DNA from: Massilia forsythiae
GTDB lineage: Bacteria > Pseudomonadota > Gammaproteobacteria > Burkholderiales > Burkholderiaceae_D
Assembly: GCF_012849555.1 (NCBI RefSeq)
Contig: NZ_CP051685.1
Coordinates: 682,001 to 746,000 of the forward strand
Reading direction: 5' to 3'
Length of the DNA: 64,000 nt
Within the stretch, counting starts at the first letter, position 1. Each line of letters begins with the position of its first letter. Below the pieces are notes generated by a model that worked only from the letters and a program-made list of their open reading frames with translations, was not told the DNA's origin and ran no database searches. Shown in pieces: positions 9,179 to 21,237 of the stretch. A program made the translations under genes and the position numbers.

Positions 9179-9257
<79 letters not shown>

Positions 9258-9326: not shown

Positions 9327-9405
<79 letters not shown>

Positions 9406-10739: not shown

Positions 10740-13556
10740 TCAGTTTTCGACTGCGCGCGCCTCGGCCAGGATCGCGCGGATCTCCGGAATGCACGACCCG
10801 CAATTGCCGCCCGCCTTGACGCAGGCCGTCACCGCCGCCGCATCCTTGCAGCCATGCTGCCGGATGGCGATCTCGATGGTCTTGCGGCCGACGCCGAAGC
10901 ACGAGCACACGGTCGGCCCGGCGTCGACGCCCTGCTCGCGCGCGCGGCCCGACAGCAGGCCCATGCGGTCGGCCGGCGCCAGGCGCTCCTTGGCGAACAT
11001 ACCGGCCAGCCAGGCGCGCGCCGGCAAATCCTGGCGGCGCGACACGAATAGGCAGGCTTCGATGCGGCCGTCGACCAGGTGCGCGGCGCGGTACACGCCG
11101 CCGTTGCGGTCCTCGGCCTCGATCCAGTCGGCGCCCTCGTCGTCGGCGGCGCCGTGCTCGTGCGGCGCCACGCCCAGCAGGGCGCGGCCCCAGCCGGCGG
11201 CGTCGGCGAACGGCTTGCGCCCGGCCAGTTCGTAGCGGATGAAATCGGCGCCCTGGATGCGGGTCCAGTGCGCCGCTTCCAGCAGCGGCAGTTCGCTGCG
11301 GCTCAGGATGAAGCCGTACCAGTTGACGCCGAACGGCTCCAGGCGCACCGGCGTGTGCTTGAACTCGGGCTCGCCCGAGACCGGGTCCACCGCCGGATTC
11401 ACCACCGCGCCCACGCGCGCGTCGGACGCGGTCTGGGCGCTCCAGTGGATCGGCATGAACACGCTGCCGCGCGCGATGCCGCCGCCGTGCTGCACGCGCG
11501 CCACCACCGAACCCCAGCCGCTCACCACGCGCGCCAGTTCGCCCGCCTTGACGCCCCACAGCAGCGCATCCTGCGGGTGCATGTCGACGAAGGGTTCCGG
11601 CACGTGCTCGGCCAGTCTCGGCGACTTGCCGGTGCGCGTCATGGTGTGCCACTGGTCGCGCACGCGGCCGGTGTTCAGCACCAGCGGATAGTCGCCGTCG
11701 GGCAGGTTGGCCGGCGCGCGCGCCACGGTGGCGACGAAGCGCGCACGCCCGTCGGGGAATGAAAACATGCCGTCGCCGAACAGGCGCGTGCTGGCGTCCG
11801 CTTCTTGTGCAGCTTCTCGTGCCGCTTCTTGTTCCTCTCCTTGTGCCGCCAACGACGCTGCCGCGCCAGCCAGCACCGGCCACTGCAGCGGCGCCAGCGC
11901 ATCGTAGGCGGCGCGCGTCATGCCGGCCAGGCCGCCGATGTCGAACAGCCGGCGGCGCTGTCCCGGCGTGCCGTTCTGCCAGGCGCTCAGGCGCGCGTGC
12001 TCGTCGAAGATCTCGTGCGGCGCGGTGAAATCGAACCCCGCGTAACCCATGCGGCGGGCGACGTCGCAGATGATGTGCCAGTCCGGCCGCGCGGCGCCGG
12101 GCGCCGACAAAAAGCCGCGCTGGCGCGAGATGCAGCGCTCGGAATTGGTGACGGTGCCATCCTTCTCGCCCCAGCCGAGCGCCGGCAGCAGCACGTGCGA
12201 GACGGCGTTGGTATCGGTGCCGAGCGCGATGTCGGACGCCACCACCAGCTCGCATTTGGCCAGGGCACGTCGGGCCTGGTCGGCGTCCGGCATGCTCACC
12301 AGCGGGTTGGTCGCCATGATCCACACCGCCTTGACCTTGCCCGCTTCGATGGCCTGGAACAGGTCGACCGCCTTCAGGCCGGGCCGCTCGGCCATGCGCG
12401 GCGCCTGCCAGAAGCCTTGCAGCGCCGCGCGCTGGTCCGGATTGTCCAGGTCCATGTGCGCGGCCAGCATGTTGGCCAGGCCGCCGACTTCGCGCCCGCC
12501 CATGGCGTTCGGCTGGCCGGTCAGCGAGAACGGCCCCATGCCGGGTTTGCCGATGCGGCCGGTGGCCAGGTGGCAGTTGATGATGGCATTGACCTTGTCG
12601 GCGCCGCTGCTGGACTGGTTGACGCCCATGGTGAAGGCGGTGACCACCTTGTCGGTGGCGGCGAACCATTCGTAGAACTGGCGCAGCAGCTGCGGGTCGA
12701 TGCGGCAGGCCCTGGCCACTTCCAGCAGGTTGCCGCCCTGCCCGGCCGCCGCCAGCGCATCGTCCAGGCCCGTCGTGTGGCCGGCCACGAAGGCGGCGTC
12801 CAGCCGGTTTTGCTGCGCCAGGTAGGCCAGCAAGCCGTTGAACAGCGCCACGTCGGCGCCCGGCTTCAACGGCAGGTGCAGGTCGGCGATGTCGCAGGTG
12901 GCGGTGCGGCGCGGGTCGATCACCACGATCTTCAGGTGCGGGCGCGCTTCCTTGGCGCGCGCGATGCGCTGGTACAGCGTCGGATGGCACCAGGCCGCGT
13001 TGGAGCCGACCAGCACGATCATGTCGGCCAGCTCGAAGTCCTCGTAGCAGCCGGGCACCACGTCTTCGCCGAAGGCGCGCTTGTGGCCGGCCACCGCCGA
13101 GGACATGCACAGGCGCGAGTTGGTGTCGATGTTGGCGCTGCCGACGTAGCCCTTCATGAACTTGTTGGCGACGTAGTAATCCTCGGTCAGCAGCTGGCCC
13201 GAGACGTACAGCGCCACCGCGTCCGGCCCGTGCTCGGCGATGATGCGCTGGAAGCCGGCGGCGACCTTGTCCAGCGCCTCGTCCCACGTGGCTTCGCGCA
13301 GCGCGCCGCCGCCGTCACCATCGGCGTCGCGCAGCATCGGCGCCAGCAGGCGCCCCTGCATGCCGACGGTCTCGCCCAGCGCCGAACCCTTCACGCACAG
13401 GCGCCCGCGGCTGGCCGGATGGTCGGCGTCGCCGGCGATCGCCAGCGTCCCATCCTTGCCCATGCTGGCGTTGACGCCGCAGCCGACGCCGCAGTACGGG
13501 CAGGTAGTGCGCACGGTGGCGGCGGATTGGATGAACGACTGTTCGGACAACTTCAT
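10740..13556 (-). CDS. nasA: Assimilatory nitrate reductase, catalytic subunit
   Basis: Cytoplasmic molybdenum bis-MGD enzyme reducing nitrate to nitrite. The 938-residue protein has an N-terminal [4Fe-4S] site (CPYCGVGC at residues 19-26 and Cys54 in GRLCVKG), the molybdopterin oxidoreductase domain and dinucleotide-binding domain (about 60-720), and a C-terminal BFD-like [2Fe-2S] domain (CSCFGVG... GGNCGSCIPEI). An Ala/Glu/Gln-rich insert lies at about residues 560-590. The ATG at 13556 has a GGGAG ribosome-binding site; a start at 13574 would overlap the upstream stop. It is the last gene of the nas operon, 14 nt after the FAD oxidoreductase that probably feeds it electrons. Confidence 0.95.
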   Translation of the reverse strand: MKLSEQSFIQSAATVRTTCPYCGVGCGVNASMGKDGTLAIAGDADHPASRGRLCVKGSALGETVGMQGRLLAPMLRDADGDGGGALREATWDEALDKVAAGFQRIIAEHGPDAVALYVSGQLLTEDYYVANKFMKGYVGSANIDTNSRLCMSSAVAGHKRAFGEDVVPGCYEDFELADMIVLVGSNAAWCHPTLYQRIARAKEARPHLKIVVIDPRRTATCDIADLHLPLKPGADVALFNGLLAYLAQQNRLDAAFVAGHTTGLDDALAAAGQGGNLLEVARACRIDPQLLRQFYEWFAATDKVVTAFTMGVNQSSSGADKVNAIINCHLATGRIGKPGMGPFSLTGQPNAMGGREVGGLANMLAAHMDLDNPDQRAALQGFWQAPRMAERPGLKAVDLFQAIEAGKVKAVWIMATNPLVSMPDADQARRALAKCELVVASDIALGTDTNAVSHVLLPALGWGEKDGTVTNSERCISRQRGFLSAPGAARPDWHIICDVARRMGYAGFDFTAPHEIFDEHARLSAWQNGTPGQRRRLFDIGGLAGMTRAAYDALAPLQWPVLAGAAASLAAQGEEQEAAREAAQEADASTRLFGDGMFSFPDGRARFVATVARAPANLPDGDYPLVLNTGRVRDQWHTMTRTGKSPRLAEHVPEPFVDMHPQDALLWGVKAGELARVVSGWGSVVARVQHGGGIARGSVFMPIHWSAQTASDARVGAVVNPAVDPVSGEPEFKHTPVRLEPFGVNWYGFILSRSELPLLEAAHWTRIQGADFIRYELAGRKPFADAAGWGRALLGVAPHEHGAADDEGADWIEAEDRNGGVYRAAHLVDGRIEACLFVSRRQDLPARAWLAGMFAKERLAPADRMGLLSGRAREQGVDAGPTVCSCFGVGRKTIEIAIRQHGCKDAAAVTACVKAGGNCGSCIPEIRAILAEARAVEN

Positions 13557-13570
13557 GGTGATACTCCCGC

Positions 13571-14830
13571 TCAAGCCGCCTGCTTCGCGTTCTCCGCAAG
13601 GGCCTGGCCAAACAACAATTGGTCGCGCATCGACGCGATGTCGGTGCGCTTCTGGATCAGGTCGAAGTACCAGGGGCCGTCGGCCACGTCGCCGTACAGC
13701 ACCGCACCGACCAGGCGGTTGCCGGCCACCACCAGGCGTTTATACACGCCGCCGCGGCGGTCGCGCAGCACCAGGTCTTCGCTGCCTTCGCCGCCGACGA
13801 TGTCGCCGGCCGAGTACAGGTCGACGCCGGTCACCTTCAATTTGGTGGCAGTGGCCTGCTGCACGTAGCGGCGGTGGCCGGCGCCGGCCAGGTGCGCCGC
13901 GCACACGCGCGCCTGGTCCCAGATCGGCGCCACCAGGCCGAAGGTGGCGCGCCGGTGCTGCACGCACTCGCCCACCGCGTACACGCGCGGGTCGTAGGTC
14001 TGCAGCGTGTCGTCGACCACGATGGCGCGCTCGCAGTGCAGGCCGGCCGACTGCGCCAGCGCGATGTTGGGACGCACGCCGGCCGCCATCACCACCAGGT
14101 CGGCCGGGATCTCTTCGCCGTCCTGGAAGCGCACAGCGCGCACGCGCGTGCCTTCTTCGTCAGCGACGATCTCGGCAGTCTGGCGCTCCAGCAGGATACG
14201 CAGGCCGCGCCGCTCCAGCGTGGCGCGCAGCAGGCCGGCGGCGGAGGCGTCCAGCTGCTGGTTCATCAGGCTGGCGGTGACGTGCACCACGCTCACCTCC
14301 ATGCCCTGGCGGCGCAGGCCGTTGGCCGCTTCCAGGCCGAGCAGGCCGCCGCCGATCACCACCGCATGGCCGCCCGCGCGCGCGGCGGCCAGCATGGCGT
14401 CGACGTCCTGCAGGTCGCGGAAACCGACCACGCCGTCGAGCTGGTGGCCCGGCACCGGCACGATGAAGGGTTTCGAGCCGGTGGCGATCAGCAGGCGGTC
14501 GTATTCCACCGCCAGGCCGGATTGCGCATGCACGATGCGGCGCTTGCGGTCGATGCGCGTCACCGGATCGCCCGCATGCAGGGCGATGCCGTGCTCGGCG
14601 TACCACTCGCGCGTGTTGAGCATGATGTCGGCGAAGGCCTTTTCGCCGGACAGCACCGGCGACAGCAGGATGCGGTTGTAATTGCCGTGCGGCTCGGCGC
14701 CGAACACGCTGATGCGGTACATGTCGGGCGCCAGCTTGAGCAATTCCTCGACCGTGCGCATGCCGGCCATGCCGTTGCCGATCACCACGAGGGACGGTTT
14801 GTCGACATCCGGCGCATCGTGCGCTTCCAT
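13571..14830 (-). CDS. FAD/NAD(P)H oxidoreductase of nitrate reduction (NasB-like electron-transfer subunit)
   Basis: A 419-residue pyridine-nucleotide-disulphide-type flavoprotein with two Rossmann motifs (VVIGNGMAGMRTVEE near residue 16, VVIGGGLLGLEAANGL near residue 150) and a late segment ATKLKVTGVDLYSAGD. The same blocks occur in the first half of NirB (TKLKLMGVDVASIGD), so it is a paralogue of that part of NirB. It has no Cys motif for a second cofactor. It lies between nirD and nasA, 2 nt after nirD. The inferred role is NAD(P)H-to-NasA electron transfer, with the [2Fe-2S] centre carried by NasA itself. Confidence 0.85.
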   Translation of the reverse strand: MEAHDAPDVDKPSLVVIGNGMAGMRTVEELLKLAPDMYRISVFGAEPHGNYNRILLSPVLSGEKAFADIMLNTREWYAEHGIALHAGDPVTRIDRKRRIVHAQSGLAVEYDRLLIATGSKPFIVPVPGHQLDGVVGFRDLQDVDAMLAAARAGGHAVVIGGGLLGLEAANGLRRQGMEVSVVHVTASLMNQQLDASAAGLLRATLERRGLRILLERQTAEIVADEEGTRVRAVRFQDGEEIPADLVVMAAGVRPNIALAQSAGLHCERAIVVDDTLQTYDPRVYAVGECVQHRRATFGLVAPIWDQARVCAAHLAGAGHRRYVQQATATKLKVTGVDLYSAGDIVGGEGSEDLVLRDRRGGVYKRLVVAGNRLVGAVLYGDVADGPWYFDLIQKRTDIASMRDQLLFGQALAENAKQAA

Positions 14831-14832
14831 GG

Positions 14833-15186
14833 TCAGGCTCCCACCCAGACCCGGCCATCCTCGACGCGTACCGGATAGCTGGACACCGAGTTGTGCGGCG
14901 CTTCCAGGCATTCGCCGGTCTGCAGGTCGAAGTGCTGCTTGTAGATCGGCGAAGCCACCACGATGCGCTCGCCGATGCTGCCGACCAGGCCGCGCGACAG
15001 CACGGCGGCGTCCGAATTCGGGTCGACGTTGTCGATGGCGAACAGGCGCGGCGCGCTCTCGTCGGCGCCGACGCGGAACACGGCCACTTGCCGGCCGTTG
15101 ATCAGCGCGCACACGCCGGTATCGGGCACGATGCGCTCCAGCGTGCAGATCGGGTTCCAGTGTTGCGTTTGAAGGTCGCGCTGCAT
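14833..15186 (-). CDS. nirD: Nitrite reductase (NADH) small subunit
   Basis: A 117-residue NirD, a Rieske-like fold usually lacking the cluster ligands. It starts MQRDLQTQHWNPICTLERIV and contains FAIDNVDPNSDAAVLSRG and the conserved SPIYKQHFDLQTGECLE segment. The ATG has an AGGAGAAT ribosome-binding site. It is 32 nt downstream of nirB and 2 nt upstream of the FAD oxidoreductase. It assembles with NirB for cytoplasmic nitrite reduction to ammonium. Confidence 0.95.
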   Translation of the reverse strand: MQRDLQTQHWNPICTLERIVPDTGVCALINGRQVAVFRVGADESAPRLFAIDNVDPNSDAAVLSRGLVGSIGERIVVASPIYKQHFDLQTGECLEAPHNSVSSYPVRVEDGRVWVGA

Positions 15187-15218: not shown

Positions 15219-17753
15219 TCACACGCCGGCGGCGATCGGGATCACGCGGCGCAGCTCGCGCTCCTGCGGCGTGGCCGGGCGGATCTGGCCGCGCTCCGGC
15301 ACGAACACCACGGTCGGGTCGGCGGCGTCGCTGTTGACGAAGCTGTTGAAGCGCTGGCGCACGGCCGGGTCCTCGATCGCTTCCTTCCATTCGCAGACGT
15401 AGGTGTCGACCAGGTGCTGCATGTCGGCTTCGAGGTCGGCGCAGATGCCCAGCTTGTCGTCCAGGACCACCTGCTTCAGGTAATCCAGGCCGCCCTCCAG
15501 GTTCTCGCGCCAGGTGCTGGTGCGCTGCAGGCGGTCGCCGGTGCGCACGTAGAACATCAGGAAGCGGTCGATCATTTTCACCACGGTCGCCTCGTCCAGG
15601 CCGGACGCCAGCAGCTCGGCGTGGCGCGGCTTCATGCCGCCGTTGCCGCACACGTACAGGTTCCAGCCCTTGTCGGTGGCGATCAGGCCGACGTCCTTGC
15701 ACTGCGCCTCGGCGCATTCGCGCGTGCAGCCGGACACGCCGAACTTGATCTTGTGCGGCGCGCGCAAGCCTTTATAGCGGTTCTCCAGCGCCACCGCGAA
15801 GCCGACCGAGTCACCCACGCCGTAGCGGCACCAGGTCGAGCCGACGCAGGATTTCACGGTGCGGATCGACTTGCCGTAGGCGTGCCCGGTCTCGAAGCCG
15901 GCGGCGATCAGCTCTTCCCAGATGTGCGGCAGCTGTTCCACACGCGCGCCGAACAGGTCGACGCGCTGGCCGCCGGTGATCTTGGTGTACAGGCCGTACT
16001 TCTTGGCCACCATGCCCACCGCGATCAGGCCGTCCGGGGTCACCTCGCCGCCGGCCATGCGCGGCACCACGGAATAAGTGCCGTCCTTCTGGATATTGCC
16101 GAGGAAGTAATCGTTCGAATCCTGCAGGCTGGCGTGCTGGGGTTTGAGCACGAAGTCGTTCCAGGCCGAGGCGAAGATATTGGCGGCCACCGGCTTACAG
16201 ATGTCGCAGCCGAGGCCACGGCCGTGCTTGTGCAGCAGCTCGCCGAAGGTCTTGATACCGCCCACGCGCACCAGGTGGTGCAGTTCCTGGCGCGAGTACG
16301 GGAAGTGCTCGCACAGATGGTTGCTGACCGCCAGGCCGGCCTTTTTCATTTCCGCCTTCATGATCTGCGTGACCAGCGGCACGCAGCCGCCGCACGAGGT
16401 GCCGGCATTCGTGCAGCTTTTCACCGCGCCGATGTCGTTGGCGCCACCGGCCACGGCCTGGCAGATGTCGCCCTTGGTCACGGCGTTGCACGAGCACACC
16501 TGGGCCGCGGCCGGCAGCGCGTCGACGCCGAGCGCCGGGCGGATGCCGCCTTCGGCCTGCGGCAGGATCAGGAATTCGGGAGAGTCGGGCAGCGGCATAT
16601 CGTTGAGCATCATCTGCAGCAGGCTGCCGTACTCAGCGGCGTCGCCCACCAGCACCGCGCCCAGCAGGCGCTTGCCGTCTTCGGACACCACGATCTTCTT
16701 GTAGATGCCCTTGCGCTCGTCGCTGAACTGGAAGCTGCGGCTGCCGGCGGTGGCGCCGTGGGCATCGCCGATGCTGGCCACGTCCACGCCCATCAGTTTC
16801 AATTTGGTGCTCATGTCGGCGCCGGCGAAGCTGCCTTCCTGGCCGAGCAGCGCCTTGGCGACGGTGCGCGCCATGTCGTAGCCCGGCGCCACCAGGCCGA
16901 AGGTCTGGCCGTTCCAGGCGGCGCATTCACCGATCGCGTACACGTCCGGGTCCGAGGTGACGCAGGCGCCGTCGATGGCGATGCCGCCGCGCGCGCCGAT
17001 GGCCAGGCCGCAGGCGCGCGCCAGTTCGTCGCGCGGGCGGATGCCGGCCGAGAACACGATCATGTCGGTTTCCAGCTGGCTGCCGTCGGCGAATTCCATG
17101 CGGTGCGTGGCGCTTTCGCCATCGACGATGCGCAGCGTGTTCTTTTGCGTGTGCACCGTCACGCCCAGTTCCTCGATCTTGGTGCGCAGGGTGCGCCCGC
17201 CCAGTTCGTCGACCTGCACCGCCATCAGGCGCGGCGCGAATTCGACCACGTGGGTCTGCAGGCCGAGGTCGCGCAGCGCCTTGGCGCATTCCAGGCCGAG
17301 CAGGCCGCCGCCGATCACCACCCCCGAGCGACCGCGCGCGCCGCATTCGCGCATGCCTTCCAGGTCTTCGATGGTGCGGTAGACGAAGCAATCCTTGCGC
17401 TCCTTGCCGGGCACCGGCGGCACGAACGGGGTCGAGCCGGTGGCGAACACCAGCTTGTCGTAAGGGAGCACTTCACCGTCGGCCAACGTGACCGTCCTGG
17501 CGTCGCGGTCGACGGCGACGGCCCTGGCGTTCAATTTGAGGGTCAGCTTGTCGCGCTCGAAGAAACCCGGCACCACCAGCGACAGGTCGTCGGCGGTCTT
17601 CCCCGAAAAGAATTCGGACAGGTGCACGCGGTCGTAGGCGGCGCGCGGTTCTTCGCCCAGCACGGTGACGTCGAAGCCGTGGCCGCCGTCGGCGACCAGG
17701 GTTTCCAGGAATTTGTGGCCGACCATGCCGTGGCCGATGACGATGAGTTTCAT
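15219..17753 (-). CDS. nirB: Nitrite reductase (NADH) large subunit
   Basis: Cytoplasmic sirohaem enzyme reducing nitrite to ammonium with NADH. The 844-residue protein has an N-terminal FAD/NAD part (MKLIVIGHGMVGHKFLETL, VVIGGGLLGLECAKAL), a BFD-like [2Fe-2S] domain (CSCNAVTKGD ... CTNAGTSCGGC), and the C-terminal sulfite/nitrite reductase repeats with the [4Fe-4S]-sirohaem Cys set (CVGSTWCRYG, then SGCTRECAEAQCKDVG). The frame stays open upstream to 18110, but family alignment fixes MKLIVIGHG as the start, with an AGGAAGGAAAG ribosome-binding site. It is the second gene of the operon after the transporter. Confidence 0.97.
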   Translation of the reverse strand: MKLIVIGHGMVGHKFLETLVADGGHGFDVTVLGEEPRAAYDRVHLSEFFSGKTADDLSLVVPGFFERDKLTLKLNARAVAVDRDARTVTLADGEVLPYDKLVFATGSTPFVPPVPGKERKDCFVYRTIEDLEGMRECGARGRSGVVIGGGLLGLECAKALRDLGLQTHVVEFAPRLMAVQVDELGGRTLRTKIEELGVTVHTQKNTLRIVDGESATHRMEFADGSQLETDMIVFSAGIRPRDELARACGLAIGARGGIAIDGACVTSDPDVYAIGECAAWNGQTFGLVAPGYDMARTVAKALLGQEGSFAGADMSTKLKLMGVDVASIGDAHGATAGSRSFQFSDERKGIYKKIVVSEDGKRLLGAVLVGDAAEYGSLLQMMLNDMPLPDSPEFLILPQAEGGIRPALGVDALPAAAQVCSCNAVTKGDICQAVAGGANDIGAVKSCTNAGTSCGGCVPLVTQIMKAEMKKAGLAVSNHLCEHFPYSRQELHHLVRVGGIKTFGELLHKHGRGLGCDICKPVAANIFASAWNDFVLKPQHASLQDSNDYFLGNIQKDGTYSVVPRMAGGEVTPDGLIAVGMVAKKYGLYTKITGGQRVDLFGARVEQLPHIWEELIAAGFETGHAYGKSIRTVKSCVGSTWCRYGVGDSVGFAVALENRYKGLRAPHKIKFGVSGCTRECAEAQCKDVGLIATDKGWNLYVCGNGGMKPRHAELLASGLDEATVVKMIDRFLMFYVRTGDRLQRTSTWRENLEGGLDYLKQVVLDDKLGICADLEADMQHLVDTYVCEWKEAIEDPAVRQRFNSFVNSDAADPTVVFVPERGQIRPATPQERELRRVIPIAAGV

Positions 17754-17791
17754 GATGCTTTCCTTCCTTGCTTGAACTTGTAAAGCAAACC

Positions 17792-19087
17792 TCATGCCGC
17801 CGCAGCGGCCGGGGTTTCGAGGGCGCTGCTGCTGAAGCGCACGCCGATCGCGCACACGCTGGCCACCAGCACGGCGCCGCCCAGGATCATCAGGGTCTGG
17901 CGCACGTCGCCGGTGCCTTTCATGAGGAAGCCGGCCAGCACCGCGCCGACGTTGCCGCCGGCGCCGACGATGCCGGCCACGCCGCCCAGCGCCTTGCGGT
18001 TCACGAACGGCACCAGCGCGTAGGTGGCGCCGCAGGCCATGTGGGTGCACAGGCCGAAGGCCAGCATGGCGGCAATCGCCAGGGTGACGCTGGCAGCGTG
18101 CGAGAACCACAGCAGGCCCAGGCCCTCGCCCACCATCAGGATGAACAGCAGGTTCACGCGGCTATTGAGATCGCCGCGCGCCGCGGCGCGGTCCGACAGC
18201 CAGCCGCCCAGGGCGCGGGCGAACAGCGCCAGCAGGCCGAAGCTGCCGGCGGCCATGCCGGCCGCCTTGAGCGACAGGCCGAAGTGGTCGACGTAATAGA
18301 CGGCGGCGGTGTTGTGGATGAACAGTTCGATGCCGAAGCAGGCGCCGTAGGTGACGAACAGCAGCCAGGCGCGGTAGTTGCCGCAGGCTTGCACGAAGCT
18401 GGCCCAGCCGCCCTTGCCGCTGGCTTCGAACGGCACGCCGGCGGCGCGCAGTTCGGCGTAGTTACCTTCCGGGCAATCCTGGGTCAGCTTCCAGTAGGCG
18501 ACGGCGGTGACCAGCATGGCCACGCCCGGCACCAGCAGCGCCACGCGCCAGCCCATGGTCTCGCTGACGCCGGCCATCACGACCGCGCCCATCAGCAGCG
18601 GCATCAAGGCTTGCGCCACGCCGCCGCCGCTGTTGCCCCAGCCGGCCGACGCCGCGTTGGCGGTGCCGACCACCTTCGGGCCGAACATGACCGAGGTGTG
18701 GTACTGGGTGATCACGAAACTGGCGCCGACCGCGCCGATGCCGAGGCGGAACAGCAGAAAGCTTTCGTAGTTCTGCGCCATGGCCACGCCCAGCACCGGG
18801 ATCGCGCCCAGCACCAGCAGGCCGGTATAGGTCTTGCGCGGGCCGAAGCGGTCGCACAGCGGGCCGACCAGCAGGCGCACCAGGATGGTAATGGCGACGG
18901 CGGCGATGTTGATGTCGGCGATCTGGCCGACCGACAGGTGGAACTCGCCCTTGATGACCGGCATCAGCGGCGCGCAGGCGAACCAGGCGAAGAAGCACAC
19001 GAAGAACGCCACCCAGCTCATGTGGAAGGCGCGCATCTGCGGCGTGTTGAAGGAGAAAAGCTTGATGCTGTTTGCTTTGCCGGCCAT
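17792..19087 (-). CDS. Nitrate/nitrite MFS transporter (NarK/NasA type)
   Basis: A 431-residue 12-helix major-facilitator transporter of the NNP family, moving nitrate into the cell. Both nitrate signatures are present: GWGNSGGGVAQ (about residue 145) and GVAGIVGAGGNVGAVL (about residue 365). The N-terminus FHMSWVAFFVCFFAWFACAPL is typical. An AGGGAG ribosome-binding site precedes the ATG. It is the first structural gene of the nas operon, directly behind the NasT-responsive leader and the sigma54 promoter. Confidence 0.94.
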   Translation of the reverse strand: MAGKANSIKLFSFNTPQMRAFHMSWVAFFVCFFAWFACAPLMPVIKGEFHLSVGQIADINIAAVAITILVRLLVGPLCDRFGPRKTYTGLLVLGAIPVLGVAMAQNYESFLLFRLGIGAVGASFVITQYHTSVMFGPKVVGTANAASAGWGNSGGGVAQALMPLLMGAVVMAGVSETMGWRVALLVPGVAMLVTAVAYWKLTQDCPEGNYAELRAAGVPFEASGKGGWASFVQACGNYRAWLLFVTYGACFGIELFIHNTAAVYYVDHFGLSLKAAGMAAGSFGLLALFARALGGWLSDRAAARGDLNSRVNLLFILMVGEGLGLLWFSHAASVTLAIAAMLAFGLCTHMACGATYALVPFVNRKALGGVAGIVGAGGNVGAVLAGFLMKGTGDVRQTLMILGGAVLVASVCAIGVRFSSSALETPAAAAA

Positions 19088-19122
19088 GTCCAGGCTCCCT
19101 TTATTTTGATCGTCAGAAAACG

Positions 19123-19181
19123 AAAAAGGCGTCCGCTGCCTGGCCGAACACGTTCTTCGTGTTTCGGGTGCAGCGGACGCC
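19123..19181 (-). terminator. Regulated intrinsic terminator in the nas leader
   Basis: 12-bp perfect arms GGCGTCCGCTGC (19181-19170) and GCAGCGGACGCC (19139-19128), with an inner CACG/CGTG hairpin between them, followed by TTTTTCGTTTT. The 5' arm overlaps the third hexaloop hairpin, so the two structures exclude each other. Confidence 0.9.
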
Positions 19182-19251
19182 GTTGTCCTGTTTGCCGGTC
19201 CGCCGTTGGACCGGCTGTGGTTCTGTACATCGAAGGGATCGCCGTTGATCC
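19175..19251 (-). promoter_or_regulatory. NasT (ANTAR) antitermination leader with three AACGGC hexaloop hairpins
   Basis: P1 is GGATC-AACGGC-GATCC (19251-19236). P2 is GCCGGTCC-AACGGC-GGACCGGC (19215-19194). P3 is GGAC-AACGGC-GTCC (19188-19175). Each loop has the A1 and G4 bases required in ANTAR-binding RNAs. P3 uses the 5' arm of the terminator at 19123-19181. The known model is that NasT, freed from NasS when nitrate is present, binds tandem hexaloop hairpins and prevents termination, allowing narK-nirBD-nasA transcription. Two such hairpins are usual; here a third, upstream one is present. Confidence 0.88.
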
Positions 19252-19266
19252 TTTACGGGGATAAGT

Positions 19267-19281
19267 GCAAGAGCCGTGCCA
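19267..19281 (-). promoter_or_regulatory. sigma54 promoter of the nas operon
   Basis: TGGCAC-GGCTC-TTGC on the minus strand, a full match to the -24/-12 consensus with GG-N10-GC spacing. The predicted start (about 19255) lies 4 nt before hairpin P1. About 100 nt remain upstream to the nasS stop for an NtrC-type activator, but I could not identify a canonical NtrC site there. Confidence 0.85.
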
Positions 19282-19381: not shown

Positions 19382-20527
19382 TTACGCCCCGCCGGGCGCC
19401 AGGCGGTGGATGGCGAACGAATGGGCGTAGGCATGCGGGTCGAGCCCGTTCCACACCTTGCCGTCCATGAGCACCGAACTGCGCATCGTCGCGCTCGGCG
19501 CCGCCACGCCGGCCAGCAGCGCCGCCTCGCGGTACAGCTCGATGCGGTTGACGCGGGCGGCCAGCGCCGCGTAGTCCGGGTCCTCGCGCAGCAGGCCCCA
19601 GCGCCGCTGCTGGGTCAGGAACCACATGCCGTCCGACAGCCACGGGAAATTGGCGTCGCCGTCGGCGAAGAAGCGCAGTGGGTCGGGGTCGCGCCAGTGC
19701 CGGCCCAGGCCGTCGTCGTACTGGCCCTGCAGGCGGCCCAGGATCGCCTGCATGTCGGTGTTCAGATAGGCCGGGCTGGCCAGCACCTCGGCGGCGGCGG
19801 CGCGGTGGGCGTCGGATTCGTCGATCCAGCGCCCCGCTTCCAGCAGCGCCGCCACCAGGGCGCGGCTGGCGTCCGGGTTGGCGTCGACGAAATCGGCGCG
19901 CGCGCCGAGCGCCTTGCCGGGGTGGTCCGGCCAGATGTCCTGGCTGACCGTGAGCGTGACACCGCTGCCATCCAGCACCGCATTGCCGCTCCAGGGTTCG
20001 CCGGCGCAGAAACCGTCCATGTGCCCGGCCGCCAGGCTGCCCGCCATCTGGCCGGGCGGCACCGTCACCAGCTCGGCGTCGCGCAGCGGGTCGATGCCGC
20101 CGGCGGCCAGCCAGTAGGACAGGAACATCGCATGGTTCCCGGTCGGGAAGGTGTGCGCGAACACCGGCCGGCGCCCGCTGCGGCGCACCAGGTCGGCCAG
20201 CGCTTCCAGGCTGGTCACGCCCTGCTCCGCCAGCGCGCGCGACACGGTGACGGCCTGGCCGTTGCGCGACAGATTCATCAGCACCGCCATCGGCGTGGCC
20301 GCGCAACCGATGCCCATCTCGACCCCATACAGCAGGCCGTACAGCACATGGGCGGCATCGAGTTCCCCCCTGACCAGGCGGTCGCGCATGCCCGACCAAG
20401 AATGTTCGCGGCTGAGCACCAGCTCGATGCCGTACTGCTGGTCCAGGCCCAGCACCGACGCCATCACCAGCGAGGCGCAATCGGTGAGCGGCATGAAGCC
20501 GGCCTTGATCTGGGTGCGTTCCGTCAT
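19382..20527 (-). CDS. nasS: NasS-type cytoplasmic nitrate sensor (CmpA/NrtA family)
   Basis: A 381-residue protein of the NrtA/CmpA nitrate-binding family (KAGFMPLTDCASLVMAS at the start, CAGEPWSGNAV in the middle). It has no signal peptide or lipobox, and no ABC permease or ATPase gene is near. That is the signature of NasS, which sequesters NasT when nitrate and nitrite are absent. It lies downstream of nasT on the same strand with a 77-nt gap holding a perfect palindrome. An AAAGG ribosome-binding site precedes the ATG. The alternative, a periplasmic transport protein, is unlikely without a signal sequence. Confidence 0.9.
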   Translation of the reverse strand: MTERTQIKAGFMPLTDCASLVMASVLGLDQQYGIELVLSREHSWSGMRDRLVRGELDAAHVLYGLLYGVEMGIGCAATPMAVLMNLSRNGQAVTVSRALAEQGVTSLEALADLVRRSGRRPVFAHTFPTGNHAMFLSYWLAAGGIDPLRDAELVTVPPGQMAGSLAAGHMDGFCAGEPWSGNAVLDGSGVTLTVSQDIWPDHPGKALGARADFVDANPDASRALVAALLEAGRWIDESDAHRAAAAEVLASPAYLNTDMQAILGRLQGQYDDGLGRHWRDPDPLRFFADGDANFPWLSDGMWFLTQQRRWGLLREDPDYAALAARVNRIELYREAALLAGVAAPSATMRSSVLMDGKVWNGLDPHAYAHSFAIHRLAPGGA

Positions 20528-20562: not shown

Positions 20563-20605
20563 AATTCGGGGTCAGAGCACATTCAATCTGCTCTGACCCC
20601 GAATT
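20563..20605. repeat. GGGGTCAGAGC palindrome between nasT and nasS
   Basis: Perfect 16-bp inverted repeat, AATTCGGGGTCAGAGC (20563-20578) and its complement (20590-20605), with an 11-nt loop. The right arm touches the nasT stop codon. It belongs to a different family from the GTCGTCCCC palindromes. Similar sequences occur widely in proteobacteria as REP-like elements (from general knowledge). It could reduce nasS relative to nasT by polarity. Confidence 0.85.
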
Positions 20606-21237
20606 CAGAGCAGGTCTTCGACGTCCAGGACGCGCTGGGCGATCTCGGCCAGTTTGAGCTTGCGGTTCATGGCCATGTTGCGCAGCTTGCGGTAGGCCTC
20701 TTCCTCGCTCAACCGGTGGCGCGCCATGACGACGCCCTTGGCGCGTTCGATCAGCTTGCGATCGGCCAGCTGGCGGCGGGTATCGGACAGTTCGTCCAGC
20801 AGCTTCTGCTCGCGGCGGAAGCGCACCATGGCCACGTCCAGCACCGCTTTCACACGCTCGGCCTGGAGGCCGTCGACGATGTAGGCCGATACCCCCGCCG
20901 CCAGCGCCGCATCCATGCTCGATTCGGTCTGGTCGTCGGTAAACAGCACGATCGGGCGCGGCTCGTCGCGGGTGGCGATCACGATGTGCTCGAGCACGTC
21001 GCGCGCATCCGATTCGCTGTCGATGATGATCATGTCCGGCTGGATCTGGGCGATGCGGCCGGGCAGGAAGATATCCGCCGGCAGCGAGGCGACGATGTCG
21101 TAGCCCGATTCGAGCAGGCCGATGCGCAGCGCCGCGTTGCGCCGCGATTGGGCGGCCGCGCTGTGCTCGTCCAGGCCGGCGCCGGCCTGGGAATTGACGA
21201 CGACGATGCGCAGGGTGCGTGGAGAAGGCGGTTTCAT
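20605..21237 (-). CDS. nasT: ANTAR-domain antiterminator
   Basis: A 210-residue protein with a receiver-like N-terminal domain (LRIVVVNSQ, MIIIDSES near residue 78, VLFTDDQ) and a C-terminal ANTAR RNA-binding domain (about 145-205: IERAKGVVMARHRLSEEEAYRKLRNMAM). It binds hexaloop RNA hairpins and lets polymerase pass the leader terminator of the nas operon; NasS restrains it. The ATG at 21237 is chosen because it gives the compact family start. An open extension to 21441 exists but adds unrelated sequence. The ribosome-binding site is weak. Confidence 0.92.
   Translation of the reverse strand: MKPPSPRTLRIVVVNSQAGAGLDEHSAAAQSRRNAALRIGLLESGYDIVASLPADIFLPGRIAQIQPDMIIIDSESDARDVLEHIVIATRDEPRPIVLFTDDQTESSMDAALAAGVSAYIVDGLQAERVKAVLDVAMVRFRREQKLLDELSDTRRQLADRKLIERAKGVVMARHRLSEEEAYRKLRNMAMNRKLKLAEIAQRVLDVEDLL

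Follow-up and report, generated by a model that had tools for sequence, protein, structure and literature searches.

The window, as we call the whole 64,000-nucleotide stretch of Massilia forsythiae DNA that was analyzed, carries on one strand, in this order, nasT, nasS, a leader, a gene for a narK-type transporter, nirB, a frame for a NirB-like FAD protein, and a nitrate reductase gene. The leader lies on the minus strand between nasTS and narK–nirB and holds three hairpins, P1 to P3, each with the loop AACGGC. The features are, in the direction of transcription:

20605..21237, minus strand: nasT, REC-like plus ANTAR antiterminator (PF03861, E 4.4e-20)
19382..20527, minus strand: nasS, nitrate sensor of the NMT1_2 family (Pfam PF13379, 286 bits)
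19267..19281, minus strand: sigma54-type −24/−12 element TGGCACGGCTCTTGC, pattern TGGCAC-N5-TTGC
19251-19236, minus strand: P1, putative ANTAR site 1 at the RNA 5′ end, GGATC-AACGGC-GATCC, 5-bp stem
19215-19194, minus strand: P2, putative ANTAR site 2, the middle, lineage-variable hairpin, GCCGGTCC-AACGGC-GGACCGGC, 8-bp stem
19188-19175, minus strand: P3, putative ANTAR site 3 and antiterminator, GGAC-AACGGC-GTCC, 4-bp stem
19128..19181, minus strand: intrinsic terminator, a perfect 12-bp stem enclosing an inner hairpin
19117..19127, minus strand: U-rich tract TTTTTCGTTTT in the sequence 3′ of the terminator arm
17792..19087, minus strand: narK-type nitrate/nitrite MFS transporter, the first gene after the leader (TIGR00886, Pfam MFS_1)
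15219..17753, minus strand: nirB, assimilatory nitrite reductase large subunit (844-aa reading; start codon inferred)
10740..13574, minus strand: assimilatory nitrate reductase catalytic subunit (NasC/NasA-like) with a C-terminal Fer2_BFD domain

The narK-type protein scored 297.9 bits against TIGR00886, just below the cut-off of 311.7, and the longer nirB frame (15219-18110) scored 1119 bits against TIGR02374; for the nitrate reductase, every nitrate reductase model scored below its cut-off. Between nirB and the nitrate reductase gene, the frame of the NirB-like FAD oxidoreductase (window 13571-15112) matched TIGR02374 at positions 1-404 only, below cut-off. The ANTAR protein and the NasS of a NasS–NasT system are both encoded with the operon: the name nasS is our assumption from position and family, and the nasT product would be about 210 aa long if it starts with MKPPSP (start codon inferred). 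A phmmer search matched NasT to chain 6wsh, titled "Response regulator" (E 2e-18), which we take to be EutV.

P1 and P2 are separated by 20 nt and P2 and P3 by 5 nt, the direct gap between P1 and P3 is 47 nt, and the loop-closing pair is C–G in all three hairpins. In the terminator, GGCGTCCGCTGC (19181-19170) pairs with GCAGCGGACGCC (19139-19128), and this 12-bp stem overlaps P3 by 7 nt (19181-19175). A first-pass annotation of the window had reported three AACGGC hairpins, the last of them forming part of the 5′ arm of a perfect terminator stem and lying 5 nt from the second, and every one of its coordinates proved exact. The identity of the loops that it also described is real in the window and accidental for P2: only 9 of 103 P2 loops from the family, defined below, read AACGGC, and because these P2 loops take 26 forms, we rejected loop identity as the key feature. 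Nor did we use the count of AACGGC as evidence, since it occurs more often in the window than expected (81 vs. 52.6 times) and alone proves nothing. The conserved feature is the ANTAR signature, an A at loop position 1 and a G at position 4 (A1/G4).

By the −24/−12 consensus of sigma54 promoters and its spacing to +1, a transcription start was predicted near 19255. P1 would then sit at the very start of the RNA, in agreement with the place that the first-pass annotation had given it. The TGGCAC-N5-TTGC pattern was present in 30 of 30 Massilia leaders and lay 18-21 nt ahead of the P1 loop in the 28 that could be measured by a fixed P1 pattern. A simple promoter and terminator scan, built for sigma70 sites and short terminator loops, gave no match in the window. 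At the Rfam gathering score, the curated RNA family matches in the window were two tRNAs only, leaving the leader unmatched; the two tRNA genes have the same sequence and lie 74 nt apart (window 9179-9252 and 9327-9400).

Folding of the leader

The leader was predicted to fold at −65.7 kcal/mol (z = −6.0), and none of 200 shuffles was as good. Folded without the terminator 3′ arm, it formed P1, P2, and P3 together. Among the lengths sampled in growing-RNA folds, P3 was part of the best fold between nt 84 and nt 120, and was replaced by the terminator at nt 124-128, the loss of P3 coinciding with the appearance of the terminator 3′ arm. For the 168-nt leader RNA from 19255, the free fold reached −72.3 kcal/mol vs. 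−61.6 kcal/mol with P3 forced, and in the absence of protein the terminator fold is thus predicted to be favored by about 11 kcal/mol. These forced folds, a check proposed with the first-pass annotation, made P3 and the terminator mutually exclusive with the terminator lower in energy, and the last hairpin excludes an intrinsic terminator as in other ANTAR targets.

Conservation in Massilia

We searched 61 genomes at the DNA level, consisting of the window's genome, 36 others of the genus, and 24 from other families of the order. Besides the window's genome, 31 of the 36 others had the leader; the 24 genomes of other families gave none in this DNA search, which reaches close relatives only. 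All three hairpins were present in each of the 32 leaders (30 read together, plus L294 of G001 and L309 of G025), and the family survey described below contributed five further three-hairpin leaders of the genus (L045, L291, L292, L293, and L295). The loss of P1 with P2 and P3 retained, an outcome that the first-pass annotation had named as speaking against its reading, was therefore not seen in any of the 32. Over the 30 leaders read together, the stem of P1 was 100% paired and that of P2 97.1%, and four pairs were changed on both sides, three of them in P2, compared with 1.3 in shuffles; as the leaders are related, neither the counts nor this covariation test are independent. One relative in the genus, L011, has an additional hairpin, GGCCTCTTGAGAGGCC, in the stretch that links P1 to P2.

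A NasT-type ANTAR protein (72-80.5 bits) was encoded in exactly the 31 of 36 genus genomes with the leader and in none of the five without it, although some of the genomes are incomplete (e.g., G024, 84%), and it was the sole ANTAR match in 14 of the 31. The leaderless G015, G017, and G026 had no ANTAR match, and the leaderless G023 and G029 had weaker ones only. This weaker match is patchy in the genus sample and does not follow the nitrate leader. The window's genome encodes two ANTAR proteins, the second being a REC-type protein of 233 aa (C1:962097-962255, L002). A covariance model of the three-hairpin leader gave one match in the window's genome.

Survey beyond the genus

The wider survey was anchored on the exact P3 core, GGACAANGGCGTCC, with neither P1 nor P2 required, and diverged leaders are missed by it. 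P3-core matches were found in 102 of 195 genomes of the family, which corresponds to Oxalobacteraceae, in at least 133 of 399 of the order, and in 63 of 369 of the class; named genomes with the P3 core and a terminator arm gave at least 120 stretches, some of which are not leaders. Beside the loci given directly by these searches, we retrieved a subset of the hits, with 70 stretches from the family, 70 from the order, and 40 from the class. We excluded 111 P3 matches lacking a recognized terminator, as well as those with fewer than 100 bases of upstream DNA, and merged leaders with the same 60 upstream bases, giving 306 distinct leaders, 120 from the family and 186 from outside; 12 named loci were assigned to the family by genus name, except that for one of the 12, L079 from a Burkholderiaceae MAG, the assignment was by sequence only.

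Three A1/G4-type hairpins were present in 108 of the 120 family leaders, including L026, L030, and L292 with a weaker P1 (−4.3 to −4.6 kcal/mol). P1 was found in 107 of the 120, and 105 of these also had an A1/G4 hexaloop hairpin at the place of P2 (−12 to −26); as a control, the other 15 letter pairs averaged 1.5 in the same 107 leaders, with a maximum of 7. The 12 leaders that do not fit comprise L279, L285, and L290 with two hairpins and a 5-6-nt linker, L274, L276, and L277 with a 23-nt linker, L264 and L270 with the middle loop GACGCA and thus G at position 1, and L184, L203, L242, and L308 with an ambiguous hairpin count. As L279, L285, and L290 precede narK, P2 is dispensable in nature. 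One genome, G485, had seemed to hold both a two-hairpin and a three-hairpin leader (L203 and L310), a reading that was given up because L203 has a possible degenerate P1. The earlier view of a nasTS-linked ANTAR antitermination leader with a real third hairpin is borne out.

Outside the family, P1 was found at −40 to −75 in 94 of 186 leaders, and 28 of the 94 had an A1/G4 hexaloop at the place of P2 (control with the other 15 letter pairs: mean 1.9, maximum 7). Thirteen of the 28 lacked a recognized promoter, and part of the 28 will be due to chance. The cases include Xanthomonas euroxanthea (L094) and the order and class families f5, f14, f21, f27, f31, f72, and f119 among others, and Salinicola acroporae (L108), where P1 lies at −83, could be another case. 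Leaders of the three-site type reappear in some other lineages of proteobacteria. In L203, L219, and 18 named leaders without an A1/G4 middle hairpin, nasS took the place of narK or nirB as the first recognized downstream gene, an arrangement that suggests autoregulation in other lineages. In Paraburkholderia and Burkholderia (L083, L087, L090, and L142), leaders with P3 and a terminator occurred in pairs, back to back and 385-537 bases apart.

Which hairpin is the additional one

In the first-pass annotation, P2 and P3 formed the ANTAR pair and P1 was an extra site that might raise NasT affinity, load a second dimer, or make the response graded. We sought P1 as an A1/G4 hairpin located 15-26 nt past the −12 element in leaders with a promoter-like match, and found it in 111 family leaders (at 17-24 nt) and 88 outside leaders (at 17-26 nt). 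In four family and 23 outside leaders, a promoter-like match was not followed by P1 within this interval, and the match itself was absent from four family and 39 outside leaders. With a hexaloop imposed, an A1/G4 middle hairpin was present in 103 of the 111 family leaders vs. 12 of the 88 outside leaders, the other 76 of which keep the promoter-fixed P1 without it. Moreover, the same 16-mer, GGATCAANGGCGATCC, forms P1 in 55 of the 103 three-hairpin family leaders and in 7 of those 76 outside leaders, e.g., in Caballeronia (L077) and Cupriavidus (L166). Because the promoter-fixed P1 and its 16-mer occur inside and outside the family, P1 and P3 are the common elements and P2 is the one that varies. 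The sequences support P1 and P3 as the pair shared with two-hairpin leaders and P2 as the lineage-variable hairpin, filling a gap that in other lineages holds a spacer hairpin with another loop or is reduced to a short linker; the assignment of P1 as the extra site was not supported.

The pairing of P2 with P3 fared better in part, in that the linker between them is a tight 1-9 nt in the 103 family leaders, compared with 7-35 nt between P1 and P2, and the two may for this reason still be a geometric unit read by NasT. One may thus regard P2 and P3 as the canonical ANTAR pair and P1 as an accessory upstream site. In the accessible parts of the work on EutV, the eut linkers of Enterococcus faecalis are 5-12 nt, induction falls drastically when the linker has 3 or 14 nt (PMC3369931), and a 20-nt extension of the linker abolishes antitermination in vitro (PMC8934654). 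However, the 76 outside leaders that lack an A1/G4 middle hairpin retain P1, in 7 cases with the 16-mer also found in the family, and as their raw P1–P3 gap ranges from 3 to 81 nt (median 36), the spacing requirement of EutV may not apply to leaders of this kind. We consider P2 and P3 as the canonical pair unlikely.

In the 103 family leaders, P1 and P3 lie 32-59 nt apart in the raw sequence (median 40), of which a median of 17 nt is unpaired, and the corresponding unpaired median in the 76 outside leaders is 19 nt; the middle hairpin thus shortens the gap both within and outside the family. This raises the alternative that P2 is a mere structural spacer joining P1 and P3, with irrelevant loop letters, and the similar unpaired gap with and without A1/G4 agrees with it. 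Similarly, free folding of leaders with a gap of at least 28 nt gave a stable middle hairpin in 53 of 60 outside leaders, 44 of the 53 lacking an A1/G4 hexaloop. Seventeen of the 53 had hexaloops, nine of them A1/G4, and at 1/16 the chance of at least 9 of 17 would be 2e-7, assuming even base use. In the family, the stable middle hairpin was present in 105 of 105 leaders, the free-fold loops being 75 A1/G4 hexaloops, 28 tetraloops, and two GACGCA. The tetraloops often arise because position 6 is a U able to pair with A1, and for these 28 the A1/G4 hexaloop is an imposed reading, a point that speaks against a recognition loop in P2. With the hexaloop imposed, A1/G4 is present in 103 of the 105, arguing against irrelevant loop letters. 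A Fisher comparison of this count with the 9 of 53 outside is not used, as it would set an imposed criterion against a free-fold one.

The pattern of substitutions points the same way. We counted loop changes by the Fitch method on a FastTree phylogeny of the flanking DNA of 103 family leaders. For loop positions 1 to 6, we obtained 0, 0, 22, 0, 8, and 8 changes in P1; 0, 5, 17, 0, 20, and 26 in P2; and 0, 0, 6, 0, 0, and 0 in P3. Positions 1 and 4 of P2 were unchanged and positions 2, 3, 5, and 6 changed 5-26 times; as the rows had been preselected for the P3 core and for an A1/G4 loop in both other hairpins, the zeros of P2 rest on the unselected count, with two G1 exceptions in 105. The loop-proximal pairs of P2 are likewise nearly fixed, the closing pair being C–G in 70 and U–G in 33 of the 103 leaders and the second pair C–G in 102, and pairs 3-8 of the lower stem vary. 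The sequence evidence supports P2 bearing the recognition signature (A1, G4, and C–G or U–G closing) under a constraint like that on P1, and the middle hairpin of the family carries a predicted binding-type loop besides shortening the gap. A purely structural role for P2 is accordingly improbable in our judgment.

That the extra hairpin serves the second, REC–ANTAR protein of the window's genome, encoded at C1:962097, we rejected as very improbable on the distribution of ANTAR proteins and leaders in the genus, where 14 leader-bearing genomes have the NasT-type match alone and G023 and G029 have the weaker type and no leader.

Discussion

Our preferred reading, to which we give a probability of about two-thirds, is a nitrate-responsive antitermination leader of narK–nirB–nasC that is read by the neighboring NasT through three ANTAR recognition hairpins in series. 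Most likely, P2 acts as a third NasT site and, by folding, also shortens the stretch from P1 to P3. In such a mechanism, transcription from the sigma54-type promoter would expose P1 first; nitrate would free NasT from NasS, and NasT could dock on P1 and be loaded early. It would then reach P2 and P3 as both emerge within about 60 nt, with P2 cutting the P1–P3 gap from about 40 nt to about 17 unpaired nt and raising the NasT occupancy beside P3. If P3 is held before the terminator 3′ arm is made, the polymerase would read through. The arrangement suggests a relay or cooperativity of NasT along the hairpins.

The known ANTAR systems offer precedents for these steps, here taken from the accessible parts of the papers. 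EutV depends on A1, on G4, and on a suitable linker (PMC3369931); its minimal site is one hexaloop, and it has been proposed to pass from a hairpin that recruits it to the one that serves as antiterminator (PMC8934654). SELEX with NasR recovered C:G-closed A1/G4 loops, and NasR bound a hairpin pair at ~1 µM vs. ~12 µM for a single hairpin, an ~12-fold weaker binding (PMC7496416). For the nasA leader of Paracoccus denitrificans, hairpin HI was needed for growth on nitrate and HII was thought to attenuate (PMC5424462); NasT targets of Bradyrhizobium are treated in PMC6759348.

The hairpins in the window have A1/G4 hexaloops in common with the EutV leaders and C:G-closed A1/G4 loops in common with the NasR target. 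The EutV leaders of E. faecalis also share a last hairpin overlapping the terminator and an ANTAR regulator, but have two hexaloops, whereas the window has three, with a 47-nt P1–P3 gap bridged by the third (PMC3369931, PMC8934654). The nasF leader of Klebsiella oxytoca, which likewise belongs to a nitrate assimilation operon, is described as a two-hairpin P1P2 leader, and its regulator NasR is, unlike that of the window, a one-component NIT–ANTAR protein (PMC7496416). P. denitrificans has nasTS beside the operon as the window does, but the account of its nasA leader, in the part accessible, covers two mutated hairpins, HI and HII, and describes no third (PMC5424462). Actinobacterial ANTAR RNAs follow the same loop rule and were accepted as dual stem-loops with a 2-25-nt linker (PMC8164766), a range that includes the 20 nt between P1 and P2 and the 5 nt between P2 and P3 and leaves out the 47 nt between P1 and P3; a search built on this definition would cut a three-site leader down to two of its hairpins. 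With three hairpins in place of two in tandem, the leader is a variant and not a typical ANTAR target RNA. In the accessible, mostly open-access literature, we found no three-hexaloop ANTAR target, those described having one or two, and the priority of the three-hairpin leader is not certain.

More tentatively, three-site leaders could form a frequent class of ANTAR switches in their own right, in which a spacer hairpin has repeatedly been turned into a binding site and NasT is passed or stacked along P1, P2, and P3, giving a steeper or more sensitive response to nitrate; we hold this broader proposal to be possible and somewhat doubtful. Our results suggest that target searches based on pairs would misdraw three-site leaders, and that the spacer hairpin of other families is part of the device. 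Why ANTAR antitermination should require a pair of hairpins if a dimer binds only a single loop at once is a question raised in the accessible part of PMC8934654. Two- and three-site leaders occur on RNA that is otherwise alike and in genomes encoding one NasT, and would allow a direct test of the need for multiple sites; the third hairpin, kept across most of the family and present in some others, offers a ready way to ask why one binding site is not enough for these switches.
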